DNA of 64,000 bases, from the NCBI GenBank assembly GCA_030041495.1, contig JASHNT010000141.1, positions 186,001 through 250,000 on the forward strand, read 5' to 3'. This stretch comes from Bryobacteraceae bacterium. GTDB lineage: Bacteria > Acidobacteriota > Terriglobia > Bryobacterales > Bryobacteraceae. A program made the position numbers and the translations under genes. The notes beneath the pieces were generated by a model, which worked only from the letters and a program-made list of their open reading frames with translations, had not been told where the DNA came from and did no database searches. Shown piece by piece: positions 43,518-54,276 of this stretch (position 1 is its first letter; every line of letters starts with the position of its first letter).

Positions 43518-45692
43518 TTAGAATGCGGGGCGCTCGGCAGCCAATTCGAGCAGTAAGGGGCCCAAACTAGTTTCGTATTTTCGCCAACGGCCGATCGAAC
43601 TGCCGGCTAGAGGCTGCCGGACCTGCACGTTGCTTGCGGTCTTCACCAGCCGTTCCGTCTGGTGGAAGAGAAGGCAGCGAGGGTCCCACGGCAGCCCGCA
43701 AAAACCGATCAAGCGCCGGGCTTGGCCTTCCAGATCATGGACCACATTTTCGTAGGAAACCTCGAGCATGACGCCGGGCGGAAGCACGGCTCGCCAGTGG
43801 GCCATCAATTCTTGGTAGGCGCGGTAATAACGGCCCAGCTCAGCGAGATCGTAGGTGTACGGGAGGCCGTAGGTGAACAGCCTGGAATAACACGAAATGC
43901 ACGTATCCAAAGGGTCGCGCATGGTGTGGATGATCCGGGCATTGGGCAGGATCATCCGGATCAAGCCGATGCTCAGAAAGTTCCCCGGCAATTTGTCGAC
44001 GATGCGAAGAGTGTCTTCCGCGACGGTCGGCAGACTCGCCAGATACGCTCGAGCAAGTTCGCGCAAGCCGTCTTCGTCGAGGGCTAGAACGCATTCCGGG
44101 AATGCAACCGGCGGATCGCCGGCGCTTAACTCGTGAACGGTTTTTTCAAGATGCTCCAACTCCCCCGCCGCGTGAATCTGTGGATGGCTGGCAAGAATCT
44201 GCTCCACCAGCGTGCTGCCCGAACGCGGCATTCCCAGCACGAACACGGGGACGGAGGACGGATCGCCCGATCCACTAAGCCGTTCCAGGAGATCTCGGTC
44301 AAACACAGTCGCAATACGCTTGAACCCCTTGAGCGTAGCTGCTTCGTCGTAATCGATCTGGGCTCGTTTCAAGGCATTGCCGATGCGGAGATGCTCGAAC
44401 GATCGAGCATAGTCTTCCGCATCTTCGAGGGCCTTGGCGAGAGCGAAGTGAAGATGCGGCGATTTTGCTTGGGGTCCTTCGGCTTGGTTAGCCAAAAGTT
44501 CGAGCGCCGCAAGCTCCGGATCGTCGCGGCGGAAGAGCTTGAGTTCCGCGCGATGCAGGCGAGCCTCCGCATAGTCCGCCCGGATTGCGATGGCGCGCGT
44601 GTAATGATCAAATGCCTCCTTAAAATGCCCTTGGGCCTTTAGAATGTTGCCAAGGTTGTTCAAAGCCTCCGCGTTGTTCGGGTCAATCGCGAATGCCCGC
44701 GCGTAGTGCGACATCGCTTCCTCGACCCTGTTCTGATCCGTCAGCACGATCCCGAGATTATTGTGCGCTGCGGCGTGATTTGGATTGATGGCCAGCGCCC
44801 GTTCGTAATGGAACCCCGCCTCCGCCGCCCGGCCTTGCGCCGCAAGGGCGATTCCGAGATTGCTGTGTACATTCGCGTGGTTCGGGTTTAACTCAAGTGC
44901 CCGTTCATACTCCGCGATTGCCTCTGGGATGCGCCCCTGGGCAGCCAAAGCGATGCCGAGATTGCCATGTAGACTTGCATCCTGCGGAGCCAGCGCCAGC
45001 GCGCGCGTGTAATGCGTGACTGCTTCGTCAAGCCGGCCTTGCGCGGCAAGGGCCATCCCCAGGTTGTTGTAGGCGTTCGCATGGCATGGGTTCAACTCGA
45101 TTGCGCGCCGGTAATGGACCATCGCTTCCCCGCTCCGGCCTGCTGCCGCAAGGGCGATGCCAAGGTTATTGTGCGCGTCTGCGTAATCCGGTTTGAGCGC
45201 CAGAGCCCGCTCCAGATATCGCATCGCGTCAACCGCCTCGCCCTGGGTGTAGCGGATGTTTCCCAGGTTGAACCAGCCCTCGGCCAATGCCGGATTGATT
45301 GCGAGAGCACGCTCATAACACTCCTGAGCGTCCCCGGGCCGGCCCTGCTTCTGGCGGACGTTGCCCAGGTTGACATAGGCTTCGGCCAGATCCGGTTTGA
45401 GCGTCAACGCAGCCTTGTAACACCGCTCCGCTTCATCCAGCTTTCCCTGCATCTCCAGGACCGTGCCGAGGTTCAGATGATACTGCGGTTGACTGGCATT
45501 CACCACGATCGCCTGTCGAATCAGGCTGCCGGCCACCTCATGATGGCCGCGTTGGTGTTCCACCATCCCCAGCAGGTGCAGGCTATCGGCGTGACGCGAA
45601 TCCGTGGCCAGGATCTGCTGGTAGATCCGTTCCGCTTCGTTCAACCGGCCGGCGCGATGGTGCTCTAAAGCCCTTGCGATGGTATCGCGCAT
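43518..45692 (-). CDS. TPR-repeat sulfotransferase
   Basis: A 724-residue protein. About 12 consecutive TPR units fill residues 1-410 (e.g. AIELNPCHANAYNNLGMALA repeated with variation). A sulfotransferase domain fills the rest, with the PAPS 5'-phosphosulfate loop GMPRSGSTLVEQILASHP near 485-502 and the 3'-phosphate site IIHTMRDPLDTCISCYSRLF near 590. It transfers sulfate from PAPS to an unknown acceptor, possibly a protein held by the TPR array. Cotranscription with the downstream FkbH-like gene suggests a shared product. The near-identical TPR units give DNA-level repeats that could confuse assembly. Confidence 0.92.
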   Translation of the reverse strand: MRDTIARALEHHRAGRLNEAERIYQQILATDSRHADSLHLLGMVEHQRGHHEVAGSLIRQAIVVNASQPQYHLNLGTVLEMQGKLDEAERCYKAALTLKPDLAEAYVNLGNVRQKQGRPGDAQECYERALAINPALAEGWFNLGNIRYTQGEAVDAMRYLERALALKPDYADAHNNLGIALAAAGRSGEAMVHYRRAIELNPCHANAYNNLGMALAAQGRLDEAVTHYTRALALAPQDASLHGNLGIALAAQGRIPEAIAEYERALELNPNHANVHSNLGIALAAQGRAAEAGFHYERALAINPNHAAAHNNLGIVLTDQNRVEEAMSHYARAFAIDPNNAEALNNLGNILKAQGHFKEAFDHYTRAIAIRADYAEARLHRAELKLFRRDDPELAALELLANQAEGPQAKSPHLHFALAKALEDAEDYARSFEHLRIGNALKRAQIDYDEAATLKGFKRIATVFDRDLLERLSGSGDPSSVPVFVLGMPRSGSTLVEQILASHPQIHAAGELEHLEKTVHELSAGDPPVAFPECVLALDEDGLRELARAYLASLPTVAEDTLRIVDKLPGNFLSIGLIRMILPNARIIHTMRDPLDTCISCYSRLFTYGLPYTYDLAELGRYYRAYQELMAHWRAVLPPGVMLEVSYENVVHDLEGQARRLIGFCGLPWDPRCLLFHQTERLVKTASNVQVRQPLAGSSIGRWRKYETSLGPLLLELAAERPAF

Positions 45693-47533: not shown

Positions 47534-48607
47534 TCATCCGATGCGGCCATCGCGCCGCAGCCGGAGCTCCCGGCCACGCCAAACAACCGAGTTGCCGAAC
47601 AGTGCCACGGCCCACACGGCGGCTCCGAAGAGATCGCGCAGCGGGATCAGGAACCATAATCGCACCACGTCACGGCTGCGCATGACGAACCATCCCGATT
47701 CGATCGCCATCAGCATCCGAGCAGCCAGCACGGCGGCTGCGACGCTCCATCGCCCTCCGCATGCGGCCACCACGGCCCAGAACGTGGCGAAAGTCACAGG
47801 CAATCCCAGATAGCCGCCGAATTTCGACACGCGAATCGTCCGTGCCCAGCGCAGCTGATGCCGCCACACATCGGCCCAGGACCCGCCCAGATGCGTCGCC
47901 ACGATCACCTCGCTCAGCACGCACTTCAAACCCAGCGCGTGCAGCTTCGCGCCAAGCTGATAATCGTCCGCCAGATAATCGGCGATGGAGGCAAAGCCGC
48001 CGATCCTCTCCAGATCGGCTGTTCGAAAAGCCAGCGTCGAGCCCATAGCGAACTCTTCGACGCCCACCATCCGCGCGACCAACGTCGATGGCGCAAATTC
48101 GGTCACCACCCCCAGGCCCTCGAAACGCGCGGCGAAGGTCGAACCCTCCGCCTGATACAGGCAGGTGACCAATCCCACGCCGGGATCTTCGAGAGGAGCG
48201 GTCACCCGCAACAAGTAGTCGGGCTCCACGCGGATATCCGAATCGTTCACCACCAGCAAGGAATAACGGGCTTCGAGCGCCAGGTCCATTAGAACGCCGG
48301 CCTTTTGATTCGGCGCATCCGTGCGGCACTCAACGATGCGCACACGCGGGAACTCGCGCAGCACTGCAACCGCCGGATCGTCCAGCGAACGGACGCCGCA
48401 CAGCAGCTCATATTCGCCCTCCAGCTGGCAGTGGGAGGCGATGGCCTCGCGGAATCCGGAGTCGAGGCCGCGCACCGGCTTGAGAATGGAGACGGGAGGA
48501 GGCGCGGCGCTTTTCTTCAAGATTTGCCCGCCGCGAAACCACAGACACGCGACCGCGGCGAACGCCTGGTATCCGGCTGCGATCGCGCCGATGATCTCCA
48601 AAATCAC
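47534..48607 (-). CDS. hpnI: Hopanoid glycosyltransferase HpnI
   Basis: A 357-residue GT2/GT21-type membrane enzyme. It has an N-terminal membrane helix, PPVSILKPVRGLD, the metal-binding VVNDSDIRVEPDYL (DxD-like), DYLADDYQLG and the acceptor-site QLRWARTIR, then three C-terminal helices. This is the pattern of ceramide glucosyltransferase relatives, and HpnI adds N-acetylglucosamine to bacteriohopanetetrol. The assignment rests on similarity and on the neighbouring hpnJ. The deacetylase hpnK that follows HpnI in the pathway is not in this window. Confidence 0.85.
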   Translation of the reverse strand: MILEIIGAIAAGYQAFAAVACLWFRGGQILKKSAAPPPVSILKPVRGLDSGFREAIASHCQLEGEYELLCGVRSLDDPAVAVLREFPRVRIVECRTDAPNQKAGVLMDLALEARYSLLVVNDSDIRVEPDYLLRVTAPLEDPGVGLVTCLYQAEGSTFAARFEGLGVVTEFAPSTLVARMVGVEEFAMGSTLAFRTADLERIGGFASIADYLADDYQLGAKLHALGLKCVLSEVIVATHLGGSWADVWRHQLRWARTIRVSKFGGYLGLPVTFATFWAVVAACGGRWSVAAAVLAARMLMAIESGWFVMRSRDVVRLWFLIPLRDLFGAAVWAVALFGNSVVWRGRELRLRRDGRIG

Positions 48608-48613
48608 GCTGCT

Positions 48614-48988
48614 CTAGAGCGCCAGTAAGGCCACGCCGCCGGCCACCAAAGCCGCGCCCATCCAGCGCTTGGCGTCGACGCGCTCGCGCAGCACCAGCCG
48701 CGCCAGGATGGTCTCAAATACGAAGCTGGCCGCGGAAGCGGGCACGGCGAAACTCAGATCGGCTTGGGAAACCAGCGTCATGAAGGCGAAGAAGGAGATG
48801 GCCATGCACACGATCGCCAGGATCAGGTACTTCTTCATGGCCAGATTCGCGGCCACGCGGCCCAGGCCGCGCGAGCGAAAGCGAATCTCGCCATGGCGCT
48901 TCATCTCGAAACTTTGCAGAGTATCGCCGGCCACGGTTCCGGCCACGATCAGAGCCACCAGCAACCAGGCTTGCGCTGCGGGCATCAC
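48614..48988 (-). CDS. Small EamA/SMR-like transporter, subunit 2
   Basis: A 124-residue protein with four membrane helices and the SMR/EamA half-fold (ADLSFAVPASAASFVFETIL, then GAALVAGGVALLAL). Its ATG overlaps the stop of the upstream sister gene by four bases (ATGA), so the pair is coupled. It lies seven bases before hpnI. Two dissimilar four-helix genes in tandem suggest a heterodimer like ArnE/ArnF, which flip an aminoarabinose lipid. A role in moving hopanoid or its glycosylated form is inferred from context only. Confidence 0.82.
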   Translation of the reverse strand: MMPAAQAWLLVALIVAGTVAGDTLQSFEMKRHGEIRFRSRGLGRVAANLAMKKYLILAIVCMAISFFAFMTLVSQADLSFAVPASAASFVFETILARLVLRERVDAKRWMGAALVAGGVALLAL

Positions 48989-49410
48989 GAGCGAACCTCC
49001 TCGATCGATGGCCGCGACTCCTCCGGCGTCGTTCGCGACTCAGTCATGCCGACCAGGGCCGTCCCCGCCACGATCAACAAGGTTCCCGACCAGCGCGACA
49101 CGCTGATCTGCTCATTCAGGACCAGGCGCCCCATGGCCGCGGTGATGATGTAGCCCACCGCGGTCAGCGGCAGCACGTAGCTCAAATCCGCCCAGCTCAG
49201 CAAAGCCATGCGCGACAGCAGCCACACGATCAGCAGCACGATACCCACCGCTACGTACGGGCTGAAAATCGCCGTCAGATAGTCCCCCGGCGAGGCGAGC
49301 TCGCGGTGCTTCATGCCAACCGTGAGGGACAAGTTTCCGAGCGGCTGAGAGATGATCACCAGCGCCAGGAACAGGCGCGTCTTCCAGCGCAGCCGTTCGT
49401 CCGCGGGCAT
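48985..49410 (-). CDS. Small EamA/SMR-like transporter, subunit 1
   Basis: A 141-residue four-helix protein with PYVAVGIVLLIVWLLSRM, SWADLSYVLPLTAVGYIITA and GTLLIVAGTALVGM, the same half-fold as its partner, and a charged C-terminal tail. ATG 49410 gives a normal start; upstream open frame lacks similarity. It follows hpnJ by 34 bases and overlaps subunit 2. The aligned SWADLSYVLP and SQADLSFAVP blocks show that the two are diverged duplicates. Confidence 0.8.
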   Translation of the reverse strand: MPADERLRWKTRLFLALVIISQPLGNLSLTVGMKHRELASPGDYLTAIFSPYVAVGIVLLIVWLLSRMALLSWADLSYVLPLTAVGYIITAAMGRLVLNEQISVSRWSGTLLIVAGTALVGMTESRTTPEESRPSIEEVRS

Positions 49411-49444
49411 CAGCGGGACCGTCCCCCTTGAGAACCGGCTCGTC

Positions 49445-50935
49445 TCATTTGAGAACGGGCTCCTCCACCTCCGCTTCCTTGAGCGACGGGTCGACGCCCG
49501 CAGCTTTGTACTCCGCCACATACTTCTTGCGTTTGTGGCGCAGGCTCAGGTAGCTCCTGGCTTCCTTGTACAGGCGCTTCCGCTCCGGACCGTCAAAAAT
49601 CGCTTTCCGGACGATCCTCCAGGCGGCCTTGGGGCGGAAATAATATTCGCCGTAGAAACGCTCTACCCAGTCCACCATTTCGGCGCGATCCAGAATTCCC
49701 GGATAGATTACGTTGGGTAACTGGTGGCCCTGGTTGTCGGCCATGTTGAGCTGCACCAGGTTGTTCTGCTTCGCGTACTGGTAGAACTCGGTGCCCGGAT
49801 AGGCGTGCGCGATGGACACCTGAATCGTCTCGCAATCCAGTTTCTTGGCGAAATCGATGGTGGTGCGGATCGTCTCGCGGGTCTCGCCCGGCATGCCGAT
49901 GATGAAGTCCCCGTGAATCACCAGCCCCAGCTTGTGCGCATTCTCGGTGAAGCGATGCGCCATGTCGATGGTGGCGCCCTTCTTCATGTTCTTCAGGATC
50001 TGCGCGTCGCCGGTCTCGTAGCCGACGATCAGCAGCCGAGCTCCGGCTTCCTTCATCGCCTTCAGCGTTTCGTAATCGGTGGTGACGCGCGAGGTGCAGG
50101 ACCAGGTGAAATCGAGCTTCTGCCTCCGCAACTCCGCGCAAACTTCCAGCGTGCGCTGCTTGCGGTAATTAAACGTGTCGTCGTCGAAGAAGATTTCCTT
50201 CAATCCCGGGAAATTTTCGAGCGAGAACTTCACCTCATTGGCGATGTCCTGCGCCGAACGCAATCTCCAGCGATGTCCCGAATGCGTCTGCGGCCACAAG
50301 CAGAAAGTGCACATCGCCGGACAACCACGGGTGGTGTAAAAGGAGATGTACGGATTCAGCAGGAACGGAACGTTATAGCGGCGGAAATCCAGATCGCGCT
50401 TGTAAACTTTGGTCACCCACGGCAGCTCATCCAGATTCTCGATTTGCGGGCCTTCCGGATTGTGCACGTTCTTTCCATTCGCCCGGTAGCTGACGCCGGG
50501 AAGCTCGGAAAGCGGAGTTCCCTTGGCGTAGTTGGCGATCTGGTAATCGAACTCGCGCCGCACGATGAAGTCGATGGCCTTGGTGGCGTCCAGCACTTTG
50601 TCCGGCTCGATGGCTACCGGAGGTCCCACGAAGCATACCTGCATCTTGGGATTCGAGTCCTTCATCATCTCCGCGATCTTCACGTCGACGTGGAAGCCGG
50701 GCGAGGACGTGAACAGCACCAGCAATTCGAAGTTCTTGGCCTGGGCCACGGTCTCTTCGATGGTGACTCCGTGCGGCGGGGCGTCGAGAACCTTGCTATC
50801 CGGCAGCATGCCCGCCGGGTAACATAGCCACACCGGATACCAGTAGGACTCGATCTCCCGGGTGGAGGGCCAGCGCGATCCTGCGCCGCCGTCGAAGCCC
50901 TGAAAAGAGGGAGGGTTCAGAAATAAGGTTCTCAT
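49445..50935 (-). CDS. hpnJ: Hopanoid-associated B12-binding radical SAM protein HpnJ
   Basis: A 496-residue enzyme. A B12-binding-like N-terminal region precedes the radical SAM domain, which has the cluster motif CPAMCTFCLW near residue 205, followed by EIFFDDDTFN, VGYETGDAQIL and GDFIIGMPGETRETI. The sequence NPPSFQGFDGGAGSRWPSTR at the N-terminus is characteristic of HpnJ. HpnJ converts bacteriohopanetetrol glucosamine to the cyclitol ether form. It is 24 bases downstream of the lipid-carrier-like gene. Confidence 0.92.
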   Translation of the reverse strand: MRTLFLNPPSFQGFDGGAGSRWPSTREIESYWYPVWLCYPAGMLPDSKVLDAPPHGVTIEETVAQAKNFELLVLFTSSPGFHVDVKIAEMMKDSNPKMQVCFVGPPVAIEPDKVLDATKAIDFIVRREFDYQIANYAKGTPLSELPGVSYRANGKNVHNPEGPQIENLDELPWVTKVYKRDLDFRRYNVPFLLNPYISFYTTRGCPAMCTFCLWPQTHSGHRWRLRSAQDIANEVKFSLENFPGLKEIFFDDDTFNYRKQRTLEVCAELRRQKLDFTWSCTSRVTTDYETLKAMKEAGARLLIVGYETGDAQILKNMKKGATIDMAHRFTENAHKLGLVIHGDFIIGMPGETRETIRTTIDFAKKLDCETIQVSIAHAYPGTEFYQYAKQNNLVQLNMADNQGHQLPNVIYPGILDRAEMVDWVERFYGEYYFRPKAAWRIVRKAIFDGPERKRLYKEARSYLSLRHKRKKYVAEYKAAGVDPSLKEAEVEEPVLK

Positions 50936-50959
50936 GAATGTTTAACGTTGACTCACCGG

Positions 50960-51703
50960 TTACGGAGCATCGGCGATCTCCGGCTGCTTTTCTTCACCCG
51001 CGGGCGTTGGCTCGCCGAAGTGGATGTTCAGATCCGCGCGTCCGGCGATGCGCGTATCCACGTGGCATTCGATACGCGAAGGCACGGAAATGCCGTTCTC
51101 CAGTTTGAACTCGTTCACGAACGCGACCTTTTTTAAAAAGATGGAAGGAGTCTTCACCAGCGTGCCCGACTCGCGCAATGGCATGCCCGTGGCCGCGTCG
51201 ATCCACAGCTCACCTTTGAACAATCCGACCGCCTTCTTTTTCGGAGTCAGCTCGAAGACGTACGTGCGGCTGTCGCCTTCCGTCATGCGGGTCTTCAGGC
51301 GGAACTTGTAGTTGTCCGGGGTGATGGCGATGGAAGGATTGTCAGTATTTTCGGTCTGCAGCGCCAGGTAGCGCTCGATCACTTCATGTTGGACCGTGCG
51401 GTCGCCCACGAACTCGCCCAGGCGGTGATAGGTGATCGCGCCCAGGCGTTTCACGATCCGCATCACCTTCATCCGGCCAGTTTCTTTCAGCTTGGGAAGC
51501 TGTGCGTCGATATCCACTTCCATCTGCGTGCCGCGCAGCGCTTCCTGCTGTATCTTACTGGCATCAAGGAACTTAGCTACCAGAGGATTGGTGGCTTCAC
51601 TAGAATCGAAGGCCCACGTGGATCCGGCGAAAACAGTTGCCAGAATGGCCGATCCAAGAATCAGTCCGCGTAGCCGCAATTCAAGCGTCCTCAGGCGAAC
51701 CAC
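50960..51703 (-). CDS. LolA/RseB-fold secreted protein
   Basis: A protein of about 247 residues with signal peptide (RGLILGSAILATVFAGSTWA) and a beta-rich body: GTQMEVDIDAQLPKLKETGR, YVFELTPKKKAVGLFKGELW and GMPLRESGTLVKTP. The last is typical of the half-barrel used by LolA and RseB to bind lipids. Start GTG 51703 is tentative; TTG 51679 has a better GAGGA spacing. It lies 17 bases after comEC and 24 before hpnJ, so it sits at the front of the hopanoid genes. A hopanoid-carrier role is inference. Confidence 0.72.
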   Translation of the reverse strand: MVRLRTLELRLRGLILGSAILATVFAGSTWAFDSSEATNPLVAKFLDASKIQQEALRGTQMEVDIDAQLPKLKETGRMKVMRIVKRLGAITYHRLGEFVGDRTVQHEVIERYLALQTENTDNPSIAITPDNYKFRLKTRMTEGDSRTYVFELTPKKKAVGLFKGELWIDAATGMPLRESGTLVKTPSIFLKKVAFVNEFKLENGISVPSRIECHVDTRIAGRADLNIHFGEPTPAGEEKQPEIADAP

Positions 51704-51720: not shown

Positions 51721-54276
51721 CTAGTGTACCAAATCCGCCTGAAACGGGTACCAGGGAGCCCGATCTACAGGATGCCACGCCATCTGGTCGAACCAGAGGT
51801 GTTGGCCGTCGGTTGAGACCGTCACCAAACCGTCAAGATCGGTTCGCAGGACGTCGGCGTGCACGCCCGCCAGGCGCTTTAGAACCTCGGCGTTAGGGTG
51901 ACCGAAGGAGTTCTCGTAACCCGCCGAAATGATCGCCACCGACGGCGATACGGAGTCCAGGAAAGGCTGAATGCTGGAGGTCCGCGAGCCGTGATGGCCG
52001 ACTTTCAGGACATCGGCATGGCCGGCCAAGTCCTCGGTCAGGAGGCGAGCCTCCATGGGTCTCTCAAGGTCTCCGGTGAGGAGAAATGAGCGCGCGCCGT
52101 AGCTCACTCGGAACGCCAGCGAGTCGTTATTACCGAGTTTGGCCGCGAAGTAGTCCGGGGGCGGCGAGACGATGGTGATCGTGGTTCCGGAGAAGGCGAA
52201 CGGTGGCTCCGCGCGCAGTTCGCGCACGCGAATTCCGAGCCGCTCCGCTTGCTGCTCCAGTGCAGCCGATGGATTCGCACCGACCCATAATTCCGTGGGG
52301 CGGAAGTTGTCGAGGATCGCCGGCAAGCCTCCGATGTGATCCTCGTGCGCATGCGTGGCTACAACGACGTCAAGCCTCTTGATCCCGCGCGTCCAGAGAT
52401 ATGGCGAGACCACGTCTTCGCCGATGTTCAGGTTCGCTTTGCGTGTGCGTCCGAACTGGAGCAGCCCTCCTCCATCCACCAGCATGCGAGCCCCTCCCGG
52501 AAACATCAGCAGCAGGCTGTCGCCCTGGCCCACGTCGATGGAAGTGAGCTCGAGCGTGCGCGGCTGCGCCTGGGGCGGCCAGGGATGCCAGATCAGCAGC
52601 GCGAACAGCACCAGCACGATCGCCATCGCCGGAGTCCAGATGATCTTGCGGCGCGCGGCTTCGTTTCGGCCCGCAGCCGCCGCTAGCGCGATCAGCGATA
52701 CTGTGAGCACCGCGGCCAGCCACAAAGGTGGGTCGGGAACGCGCCAGGAAGGCTCCAGAGCGGCGTGCCATTCCGCGATCCGAGCCGACAGCTTCAACAG
52801 CCACCCGGCTAACGCCGCCAGCCAGCGCCAATTGCTAAAGATGGCCGCAAAACCCAGAGGCACCACCGCTTCCATGACAGGACAGATCAAGAGATTCGCT
52901 GTTAACCCAGTAAAAGACACGCGATGGAAATATTCGGCCATGGGCAGAGCCAGGCCGATCTGAATCACCGTGGACAGGATGGCCATCTCCACGGCGAAGA
53001 ATGCGAATCGCGCGCTCCACTCGGTAACCAGCTCGGCACCGCGCCGGGGCAACCGGGTCCACAACGTAATGGTTTCGGCGACCAGCCGCAGTTCGACTCG
53101 CAAGTGCGCCGCGTGGCGGTCCAGATGAACGTCGCGAGCCAGATCGCTGAGCGAGCGGATGCCGCGTGCCAGCGGCACGATGCGCGGATCGAGGATCGGC
53201 GATGCCAGCGCGCCAATCGCAGCCACGGAGAGAAAGGAGAGTTGGAAGCTCGCGTCGAACAGTGAATCGGGGTCCCATAGCGTGTAGAGCAGCGCTATCG
53301 CCGCCAGCAGATTCATGATCCGGGTGCGGCGGAACAGGAACCGGGCGGCCAGGAACAGGCTGAAACCCGCTGCCGCGCGCACCACCGGCGCCGAGAATCC
53401 GGAGACGAAAGCATACAGCCAAGCGGCTGCCGATGTCGCGCCAAGCGCTCCCAGCTCTGGAACACCACAGGCTCGCAGCAGAAACAGCAGCACTCCGGCG
53501 AGCACACTGACATGCACGCCGGAGATCACCAGTGCGTGAAACGTTCCCGTGCGGCGGAAATCTTCGGTCCACACCCGCTCTAGTCCCGAGGTCTCGCCGA
53601 TCAGGATCGCCTCCATCATTGCTGTGGCGTACGGATCGCCCGAATAGAGCTTGTCGAGCCGTTCCAGTGCACCTGTGCGCAGCGCGTACACCATGGCCAT
53701 GAATCTCGATCCGCAACGCCCGGGCAAAATCTTCGCCTGCGTTTCAGGCGTCATGGCGGCAGTCCAGAAAATGTTCTGCCGTGCGAGGTAGCTCACGTAA
53801 TCGAAGCCGCCGGGGTTGTTGTAGTTGTGCGGACTGCGCACGCGAGCTTCTATTTCCACGCGCTGCCCGTAAGCCAGTTTTTGCGGCGGCGCGGAATCGC
53901 CCGCGGCATTTTCGTCCAACGGCAGGCTGACCCGTGCCCGCGCACGCCAATCCAATTCCAGAGTGAACTGCTCCCGCCCGGGAGAGAACACGGTCGGCTC
54001 GACTACACAGCCGTCGAGCAAGACTGTCTCGCGAAACCCGGCATCGATTTGAGGTGGAGGAGGAGGGCGATGCAGCACGTAATCCAGCGTGCCGGCGAAC
54101 ACCAGCGCGCCGCCGATACAGGTCGCCCGCTGCCGGCGCGAGCCTCGCGCCAGGGTCGCCAACAACAGGAACGCCACGATCGGCCACCCGGCCTCGAAGG
54201 GCGTAAAAGACAACCACCGTCCGGCGAGCACGCCGGCAAAAACGGCGGCGAAGGGAAAAACCAGGGGATCGCGCAT
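51721..54276 (-). CDS. comEC: ComEC/Rec2 DNA-uptake channel
   Basis: An 851-residue protein. The N-terminal soluble OB-like region has HNYNNPGGFDYVSYLARQNI. The ComEC membrane domain follows with GTFHALVISGVHVSVLAGVL and FLSVAAIGALASPIL. The C-terminal metallo-beta-lactamase domain has DVGQGDSLLLMFPGG and THAHEDHIGGLP near residue 640. It carries single-stranded DNA through the inner membrane in natural transformation. A dprA gene lies at the window's right edge, which supports competence in this lineage. It is full length. Confidence 0.94.
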   Translation of the reverse strand: MRDPLVFPFAAVFAGVLAGRWLSFTPFEAGWPIVAFLLLATLARGSRRQRATCIGGALVFAGTLDYVLHRPPPPPQIDAGFRETVLLDGCVVEPTVFSPGREQFTLELDWRARARVSLPLDENAAGDSAPPQKLAYGQRVEIEARVRSPHNYNNPGGFDYVSYLARQNIFWTAAMTPETQAKILPGRCGSRFMAMVYALRTGALERLDKLYSGDPYATAMMEAILIGETSGLERVWTEDFRRTGTFHALVISGVHVSVLAGVLLFLLRACGVPELGALGATSAAAWLYAFVSGFSAPVVRAAAGFSLFLAARFLFRRTRIMNLLAAIALLYTLWDPDSLFDASFQLSFLSVAAIGALASPILDPRIVPLARGIRSLSDLARDVHLDRHAAHLRVELRLVAETITLWTRLPRRGAELVTEWSARFAFFAVEMAILSTVIQIGLALPMAEYFHRVSFTGLTANLLICPVMEAVVPLGFAAIFSNWRWLAALAGWLLKLSARIAEWHAALEPSWRVPDPPLWLAAVLTVSLIALAAAAGRNEAARRKIIWTPAMAIVLVLFALLIWHPWPPQAQPRTLELTSIDVGQGDSLLLMFPGGARMLVDGGGLLQFGRTRKANLNIGEDVVSPYLWTRGIKRLDVVVATHAHEDHIGGLPAILDNFRPTELWVGANPSAALEQQAERLGIRVRELRAEPPFAFSGTTITIVSPPPDYFAAKLGNNDSLAFRVSYGARSFLLTGDLERPMEARLLTEDLAGHADVLKVGHHGSRTSSIQPFLDSVSPSVAIISAGYENSFGHPNAEVLKRLAGVHADVLRTDLDGLVTVSTDGQHLWFDQMAWHPVDRAPWYPFQADLVH

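Follow-up and report, generated by a model that had tools for sequence, protein, structure and literature searches.

The stretch of DNA considered here, a window of 64,000 nucleotides from a Bryobacteraceae bacterium (Acidobacteriota; GenBank assembly GCA_030041495.1, contig JASHNT010000141.1, positions 186,001 to 250,000), carries an operon in which the genes for the hopanoid enzymes HpnJ and HpnI enclose two small genes, SMR1 and SMR2, each encoding a membrane protein of the EamA/SMR type. Acidobacteriota are common soil bacteria and sources of hopanoids, which are sterol-like lipids of bacteria. The explanation favored, with a rough probability of 0.55, is that SMR1 and SMR2 form a heterodimer that flips sugar-headed hopanoids and stands in for HpnL. 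This role is suggested by sequence features, namely gene order, conservation, co-occurrence with HpnJ, the lack of any locus holding both the pair and HpnL, a charge asymmetry between the two proteins, and the lack of HpnN matches over the cut-off.

In the pathway as described, HpnI adds N-acetylglucosamine to bacteriohopanetetrol (BHT), HpnK deacetylates the product, and HpnJ makes the cyclitol ether (PMC12583986). HpnI, a deacetylase and HpnJ would work at the cytoplasmic face, so that synthesis of the polar head would take place on the inner leaflet and flipping would be needed. SMR1 and SMR2, acting as a putative antiparallel heterodimer in the inner membrane, would then move BHT-glucosamine and/or the BHT cyclitol ether to the periplasmic leaflet; substrate, direction and energy coupling are here inferred, with a mode of action that would resemble that of ArnE/ArnF, which flips an amino-sugar lipid. 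The pair would fill the place that is taken by HpnL in many Proteobacteria, or by an HpnL-like protein in two Acidobacteriota loci.

On the minus strand of the window, the order of transcription is comEC, a LolA-like gene, hpnJ, SMR1, SMR2 and hpnI, with successive gaps of 17, 24, 34, -4 and 6 bases (Table 1). An earlier note on this DNA had described HpnJ and HpnI as flanking a translationally overlapping SMR/EamA pair, preceded by a LolA/RseB-fold protein, and all five genes were found where it had placed them, co-directional and separated by -4 to 34 bases. HpnJ is a member of its family by the curated TIGR03471 test. With the SMR model (PF00893, gathering score 23.7), SMR2 stays below threshold at 16.0 bits and SMR1 gives no match at E<=0.1. 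A promoter and terminator scan gave 1 and 3 sites, where 1.1 and 3.6 would be expected.

Table 1. Genes of the window operon and its upstream neighbor (positions in the window).
Gene	Positions	Strand	Assignment and scores
HpnI	47534..48607	-	glycosyltransferase; TIGR03472 309.5 bits on the protein, 310.0 on the genome, cut-off 310
SMR2	48614..48988	-	EamA/SMR-type, four transmembrane helices; PF00892 42.5 bits, gathering score 28.2
SMR1	48985..49410	-	EamA/SMR-type partner, four transmembrane helices; PF00892 23.6 bits, below gathering score 28.2
HpnJ	49445..50935	-	B12-binding radical SAM protein, final step of BHT cyclitol ether formation; TIGR03471 737.7 bits, cut-off 577.6
LolA/RseB-like	50960..51703	-	signal-like N-terminus, GTG start; PF17131 24.0 bits, gathering score 30
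ComEC/Rec2	51721..54276	-	TIGR00361 256.7 bits, cut-off 190.05

This arrangement is not due to chance: within the window's family the pair recurs next to HpnJ in 61 of 67 loci examined, and HpnI is present in 63. These distinct loci come from 150 genomes of the family, 135 of them with HpnJ over the cut-off, and correspond to 43 plus 25 listed loci minus L106, a duplicate of L152; the window and two relatives from the main draw of genomes described below are included. The family loci without the pair are L141, L143, L158, L092 (at a contig end) and L096, and L102 holds one SMR gene; L143 and L158 each represent a second hpnJ copy, and the pair accompanies the other copy in the same genome. Outside the family, the pair lies downstream of HpnJ, on the same strand and within about 2 kb, in 35 of 42 Acidobacteriota loci, a set that leaves out L084-L087, where HpnJ is partial or below the cut-off. 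As to the others, the pair is about 8 kb from HpnJ in L068; it is at the end of another contig of the same genome in the case of L057, a short contig; it is on a different contig from HpnJ in L045 and L083, with hpnK or between hpnK and hpnI; HpnJ stands at a contig end in L044, whose genome has no strong SMR2 match; and an HpnL-like gene occupies the place of the pair in L040 and L041. In all, the pair adjoins hpnJ, or accompanies hpnK/hpnI, in seven families, and families f32 and f10 include six loci with an HpnK gene between HpnJ and the pair, one of these HpnK genes having been checked against the curated model. The arrangement described in the earlier note, which had proposed a survey of hpnI/hpnJ neighborhoods in Acidobacteriota as a check, is confirmed and extends more widely than was stated there.

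The same association is seen across whole genomes. The main draw comprised 297 Acidobacteriota genomes, 45 with HpnJ over the cut-off and 252 others, and the DNA was read around all 45 HpnJ copies (the window's included) and a few weaker matches. The 297 genomes were searched with an SMR2 profile built from 22 members, a strong match being a best score per genome of at least 129.3 bits, a threshold chosen after the scores had been seen, with the next genome at 101.8 bits. Strong matches occur in 43 genomes, comprising 42 of the 45 with HpnJ (the rest being G029, G278 and G192) and 1 of the 252 others; in this last genome, G103, HpnJ is present in pieces and adjoins a pair. The genome-level co-occurrence has p=2e-46, genomes not being independent; counted by family, a strong match is found in 7 of 10 families with HpnJ versus 0 of 70 without (Fisher p=4e-8). 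HpnI is matched at E<=1e-70 in 44 of the 45 HpnJ genomes. In two genomes the pair is found away from HpnJ, together with HpnK in L284 and between HpnK and HpnI in L283. Among 11 genomes of the window's family without HpnJ, G355 (82% complete) and G379 (71%) score 146 and 149 bits, G422 (92%) scores 121 bits, G328 and G351 score about 79 bits, and the remaining six have no SMR2 match at E<=1e-12. Besides the pairs, a single SMR gene follows hpnI-hpnK at other loci (ARRANGEMENTS) in HpnJ-negative genomes (L291, L293, L314 and L315), and follows hpnI in L294; the hpnI-hpnK-single SMR arrangement may be a homodimeric version of the system.

The distribution of HpnL points in the same direction. 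Of the 85 Acidobacteriota HpnJ loci, 75 have SMR genes only, 2 have HpnL only, 8 have neither, and none has both. The comparison set of 83 HpnJ loci, mostly proteobacterial, shows SMR genes in none and HpnL in 34; 80 of them represent the best 80 among at least 590 loci, and HpnJ is flanked by 5 kb on each side in only 50 of the 83. Among the hpn genes around hpnJ in Mycetohabitans and Paraburkholderia, HpnL is over its cut-off. The pair-less genomes G278 and G029 have an HpnL-like protein beside HpnJ (152 and 112 bits, versus a cut-off of 195.65), and in G192, where HpnJ is at a contig end, the end of another contig holds a partial HpnL-like match (72 bits). The exclusion between SMR genes and HpnL holds by locus, not by genome. 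HpnN, a known hopanoid trafficking protein (PMC12583986), was over the cut-off in none of the 60 HpnJ-bearing Acidobacteriota genomes, the best score being 136.6 bits (G029), and the window genome reaches 23.3 bits versus a TIGR03480 cut-off of 751.85; the model gave 573-1049 bits on six open reading frames from non-acidobacterial loci, five of them over the cut-off. A broader proposition, that two unrelated flippases for head-group hopanoids, the pair and HpnL, can replace each other, with HpnL serving Proteobacteria and the pair serving Acidobacteriota that lack HpnN, is put forward tentatively, with the odds somewhat against it.

The two proteins themselves have several features expected of such a dimer. 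In an unrooted tree, SMR1 and SMR2 fall into two clades with local support of 0.96 and 0.86, and pairs that are not linked to hpnJ divide between the same two clades as the linked ones, a split in keeping with a single old duplication; both ArnE and ArnF of E. coli lie on the SMR2 side. Identity within pairs averages 32%. With helix boundaries placed by eye on the alignment, the loop bias in lysine plus arginine is greater in SMR1 than in SMR2 in 76 of 76 pairs, with means of +0.6 and -8.1 and values of +1 and -13 for the window pair. By the positive-inside rule, the charge of SMR2 predicts an N-out/C-out topology, and the asymmetry is consistent with, but not proof of, an antiparallel heterodimer. 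ArnE is the commonest named NCBIfam match, found for 20 SMR2 members and 9 SMR1 members out of 22 each, and 20 of the 22 SMR1 members match a DUF6 model; the window proteins score below the cut-offs of these models. A single-sequence AlphaFold model of SMR2 has four helices at a confidence too low to claim a fold (predicted local distance difference test, pLDDT, 63.8), and a fold search with it returned no match at E<=0.001 and no SMR transporter among the 50 matches listed. Taken together, the flipping role suggested in the earlier note has gained support of a genomic kind, through linkage to HpnJ, the tracking of HpnJ across genomes, the charge asymmetry, ArnE as the best match, and the lack of any locus shared with HpnL.

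Several observations weigh against this explanation. HpnJ stands without the pair in L141 and L096, and HpnL, looked for beside HpnJ in L141, was not found there; L143 and L158 have neither the pair nor HpnL. In family f2 (Acidobacteriaceae-like), HpnI is not adjacent to the pair. Unlinked HpnL-like matches of 87-94 bits occur in pair-bearing genomes (G000, G265 and G291); the window genome is among the pair-bearing genomes with such a match, at 87.2 bits on contig C48, below the TIGR03476 cut-off of 195.65. The SMR2 profile gives 73-102 bits in ten HpnJ-negative genomes of the main draw. In a second set of 17 family genomes with HpnJ, 10 score at least 132 bits and the other seven only 79-111 bits, overlapping the HpnJ-negative range, so that the score gap is not general; six of these seven have the pair beside HpnJ anyway (L133, L134, L136, L139, L144 and L145), the locus of the seventh, G393, being outside the set of loci read. 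Second pairs away from HpnJ are found in L285, L286, L311 and L312, without any of the hpn genes searched for in L285, L311 and L312, and with an HpnI-like gene about 5 kb off in L286. No SMR gene was present in the stretch read at eight hpnI-hpnK loci (L346-L353) or at 12 further hpnI loci (L354-L365). The mean bias of SMR1 is near zero, and only 42 of 76 pairs have strictly opposite signs. The best NCBIfam model for the window SMR2, ArnE, scores 36.1 bits against a cut-off of 92, and SMR2 is thus not a member by that test. EamA/SMR proteins carry many solutes. Finally, because the profiles weakly match SLC35 and NIPA structures, a solute transporter role for the pair is possible.

As a side observation on the hpnI-hpnK loci, L346, L350 and L352 have hpnI-hpnK followed by a gene that by eye resembles a DegT-type aminotransferase, with no HpnJ or SMR gene in the stretch read.

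The last of the points above leads to an alternative in which the pair would be a small-solute exporter or a membrane-stress protein, co-regulated with hopanoid modification and having no contact with the lipid. The range of solutes described for SMR proteins (PMC9574504), together with the structure matches and the unlinked second pairs, would suit it. However, such a protein would not be expected to co-occur so closely with one lipid enzyme, nor to be replaced by one that has a flippase-like domain, and drug-exporter models match 1 of 22 members each; this alternative is considered unlikely.

Another alternative keeps a lipid substrate and changes its identity. The pair would flip an undecaprenyl-phosphate amino sugar for a periplasmic ArnT/PMT-type transferase, its link to hopanoids passing through a shared sugar. 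Besides the ArnE matches, this could account for a second pair in the window genome (contig C122, L090:6232-10088), which lies on the opposite strand beside an HpnI paralogue and a PMT_2 (ArnT-like) gene, and for a gene of the same cluster near HpnJ in L041. Nevertheless, no PMT_2 or Arn enzyme was found among the seven window proteins scanned, and a role of this kind does not predict that the pair tracks HpnJ. It is accordingly regarded as distinctly improbable, and flipping of sugar-headed hopanoids remains the preferred function.

The earlier note had further proposed that the LolA-like protein encoded upstream of hpnJ carries the hopanoid across the periplasm, which would turn the whole operon into a route where the pair flips and the LolA-like protein ferries. 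The LolA-like gene is indeed upstream of hpnJ in 43 of the 67 family loci (a count that includes L096 and L100, where its open reading frame overlaps that of HpnJ), but it had no match in 46 other Acidobacteriota loci read. Support for a LolA/RseB fold is modest: of 27 aligned members, 21, among them the window protein, match PF17131 (LolA_like) at E<=0.01, and the profile finds the PDB sequence 3bk5 at E=0.0042, whereas the single-sequence AlphaFold model (pLDDT 46.8) is too poor for fold claims and a fold search with it gave nothing at E<=0.001, with RseB (2v43) and LolA-superfamily (3buu) chains at E 0.04-0.07. When 37 genomes were searched with the profile, the gene had no linkage to hpnJ in 9 of the 20 family genomes with HpnJ, and it was kept in G328 (98% complete) and G351 (100%), neither of which has an HpnJ match at E<=1e-100. 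The pair is present without a strong LolA-like match in G418 and G436, scores in six genomes from other families do not exceed 91.5 bits, and eight unlinked copies (L303-L310) have no searched-for hpn gene within about 6 kb. Because the gene is often unlinked and is found without HpnJ, a dedicated carrier is rejected as the main explanation of the operon and a flip-and-carry route, which the lack of HpnN matches over the cut-off would favor, is very doubtful; the LolA-like protein is probably a neighbor and not an essential part. It could help in the window's family, being neither universal nor specific.

Least probable of all is that the pair came to lie beside hpnJ in an ancestor and has merely been kept there by descent: most pair-bearing genomes come from two families and are thus not independent, but the two genomes with the pair beside HpnK, or HpnK and HpnI, away from HpnJ speak against it, as do families f10 and f70, whose HpnJ-less genomes in the draw (G009; G235, G275) have no strong match and whose HpnJ-bearing ones (G259, G291) have it, and the family-level association, which was computed without a species tree.

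Other genes accompany hpnJ at some of these loci. ComEC, encoded upstream in four of five same-genus loci (the window, L054, L069 and L124, but not L125), is an upstream neighbor without known action on hopanoids. The window also encodes, at 43518-45692 on the minus strand, a TPR-repeat protein whose C-terminus appears by eye to be of sulfotransferase type. In family f2, genes for RecJ, an RND membrane-fusion protein, a TPR protein and a TolC-like outer-membrane factor were identified upstream of hpnJ in L073 (2336-7907), and the same clusters are found in many sister loci. A protein of cluster c21 is divergently transcribed beside hpnJ in six loci (including L045:9470-10141 and L063:7128-7799). 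It was considered as a second LolA-like carrier and rejected: the one member searched has no Pfam match, and its profile shows no similarity to that of the window protein (probability 0.5). Its single, weak PDB match is 4z48 (E=0.12), a chain that the LolA-like profile also matches weakly.

The rest of the pathway is partly found elsewhere in the window genome, where contig C34 holds a squalene-hopene cyclase over the cut-off and two HpnC/D-like genes. About 22 kb from the cyclase gene, at C34:53573-57077 (L088:5574-9078), genes for MlaE, an ABC ATPase and MlaD are directly followed by one for a YdjC/HpnK-like deacetylase, which scores 165 bits, below the HpnK (TIGR03473) cut-off of 232.6. This protein is the best candidate for HpnK, and is not HpnK by the curated test. 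The absence of HpnK noted earlier therefore stands for the operon, and for the genome it is qualified by this deacetylase. From the gene order on C34, an Mla-type hopanoid route is possible. According to a 2017 survey, subdivisions 1 and 3 have hpnI and hpnJ and lack hpnK, and hopanoid clusters hold genes of unknown function (PMC5462960).

The portions of the hopanoid literature available name no protein that takes composite hopanoids away from the cytoplasmic leaflet, and none of the literature titles searched concerns a hopanoid flippase. If the pair is a hopanoid flippase, the SMR lipid branch would gain a new lipid class; if pair and HpnL are interchangeable, this would provide a first function for HpnL and suggest a hopanoid route to the outer membrane without HpnN. 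The latter is also of interest since, if HpnN is truly absent, these Acidobacteriota must reach the outer membrane by another route. The pattern of pair and HpnL makes both the flipping of composite hopanoids and the function of HpnL testable through gene swaps.

Among known systems, HpnL (TIGR03476; LPG_synthase_TM, PF03706) resembles the pair in being found in hpnI/hpnJ/hpnK clusters, which then lack the pair, and some of its members also match a flippase-like model, below that model's cut-off. Unlike the pair, it belongs to an unrelated family and is a single gene of about 320 residues; its function is given as not established in PMC12583986. The RND transporter HpnN is a known hopanoid exporter and serves the outer-membrane step, unlike the flipping role proposed for the pair. 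Proteins of LolA/RseB fold are related to the upstream protein through weak family and PDB-sequence matches, the window member being below the gathering score. In another phylum, hpnIJ has been reported in Leptospirillum (PMC7231039), and a Leptospirillum hopanoid cluster lists an EamA-like transporter, with no role given (PMC12654047), which is possibly a parallel. Another likeness is to ArnE/ArnF, the flippase of undecaprenyl-phosphate-4-amino-4-deoxy-L-arabinose and a lipid subtype of SMR, a branch described for that aminoarabinose lipid with hints of other glycolipids (PMC9574504). Both systems consist of two adjoining SMR/EamA genes for proteins of four transmembrane helices, overlapping by 4 bases in the window pair and by 1 base in E. 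coli arnE/arnF, and both lie in operons that put an amino sugar on a lipid. They differ in that the window proteins scanned include no Arn enzymes and a different lipid is expected, so that the pair, while not a member by the curated test, may work like ArnE/ArnF.

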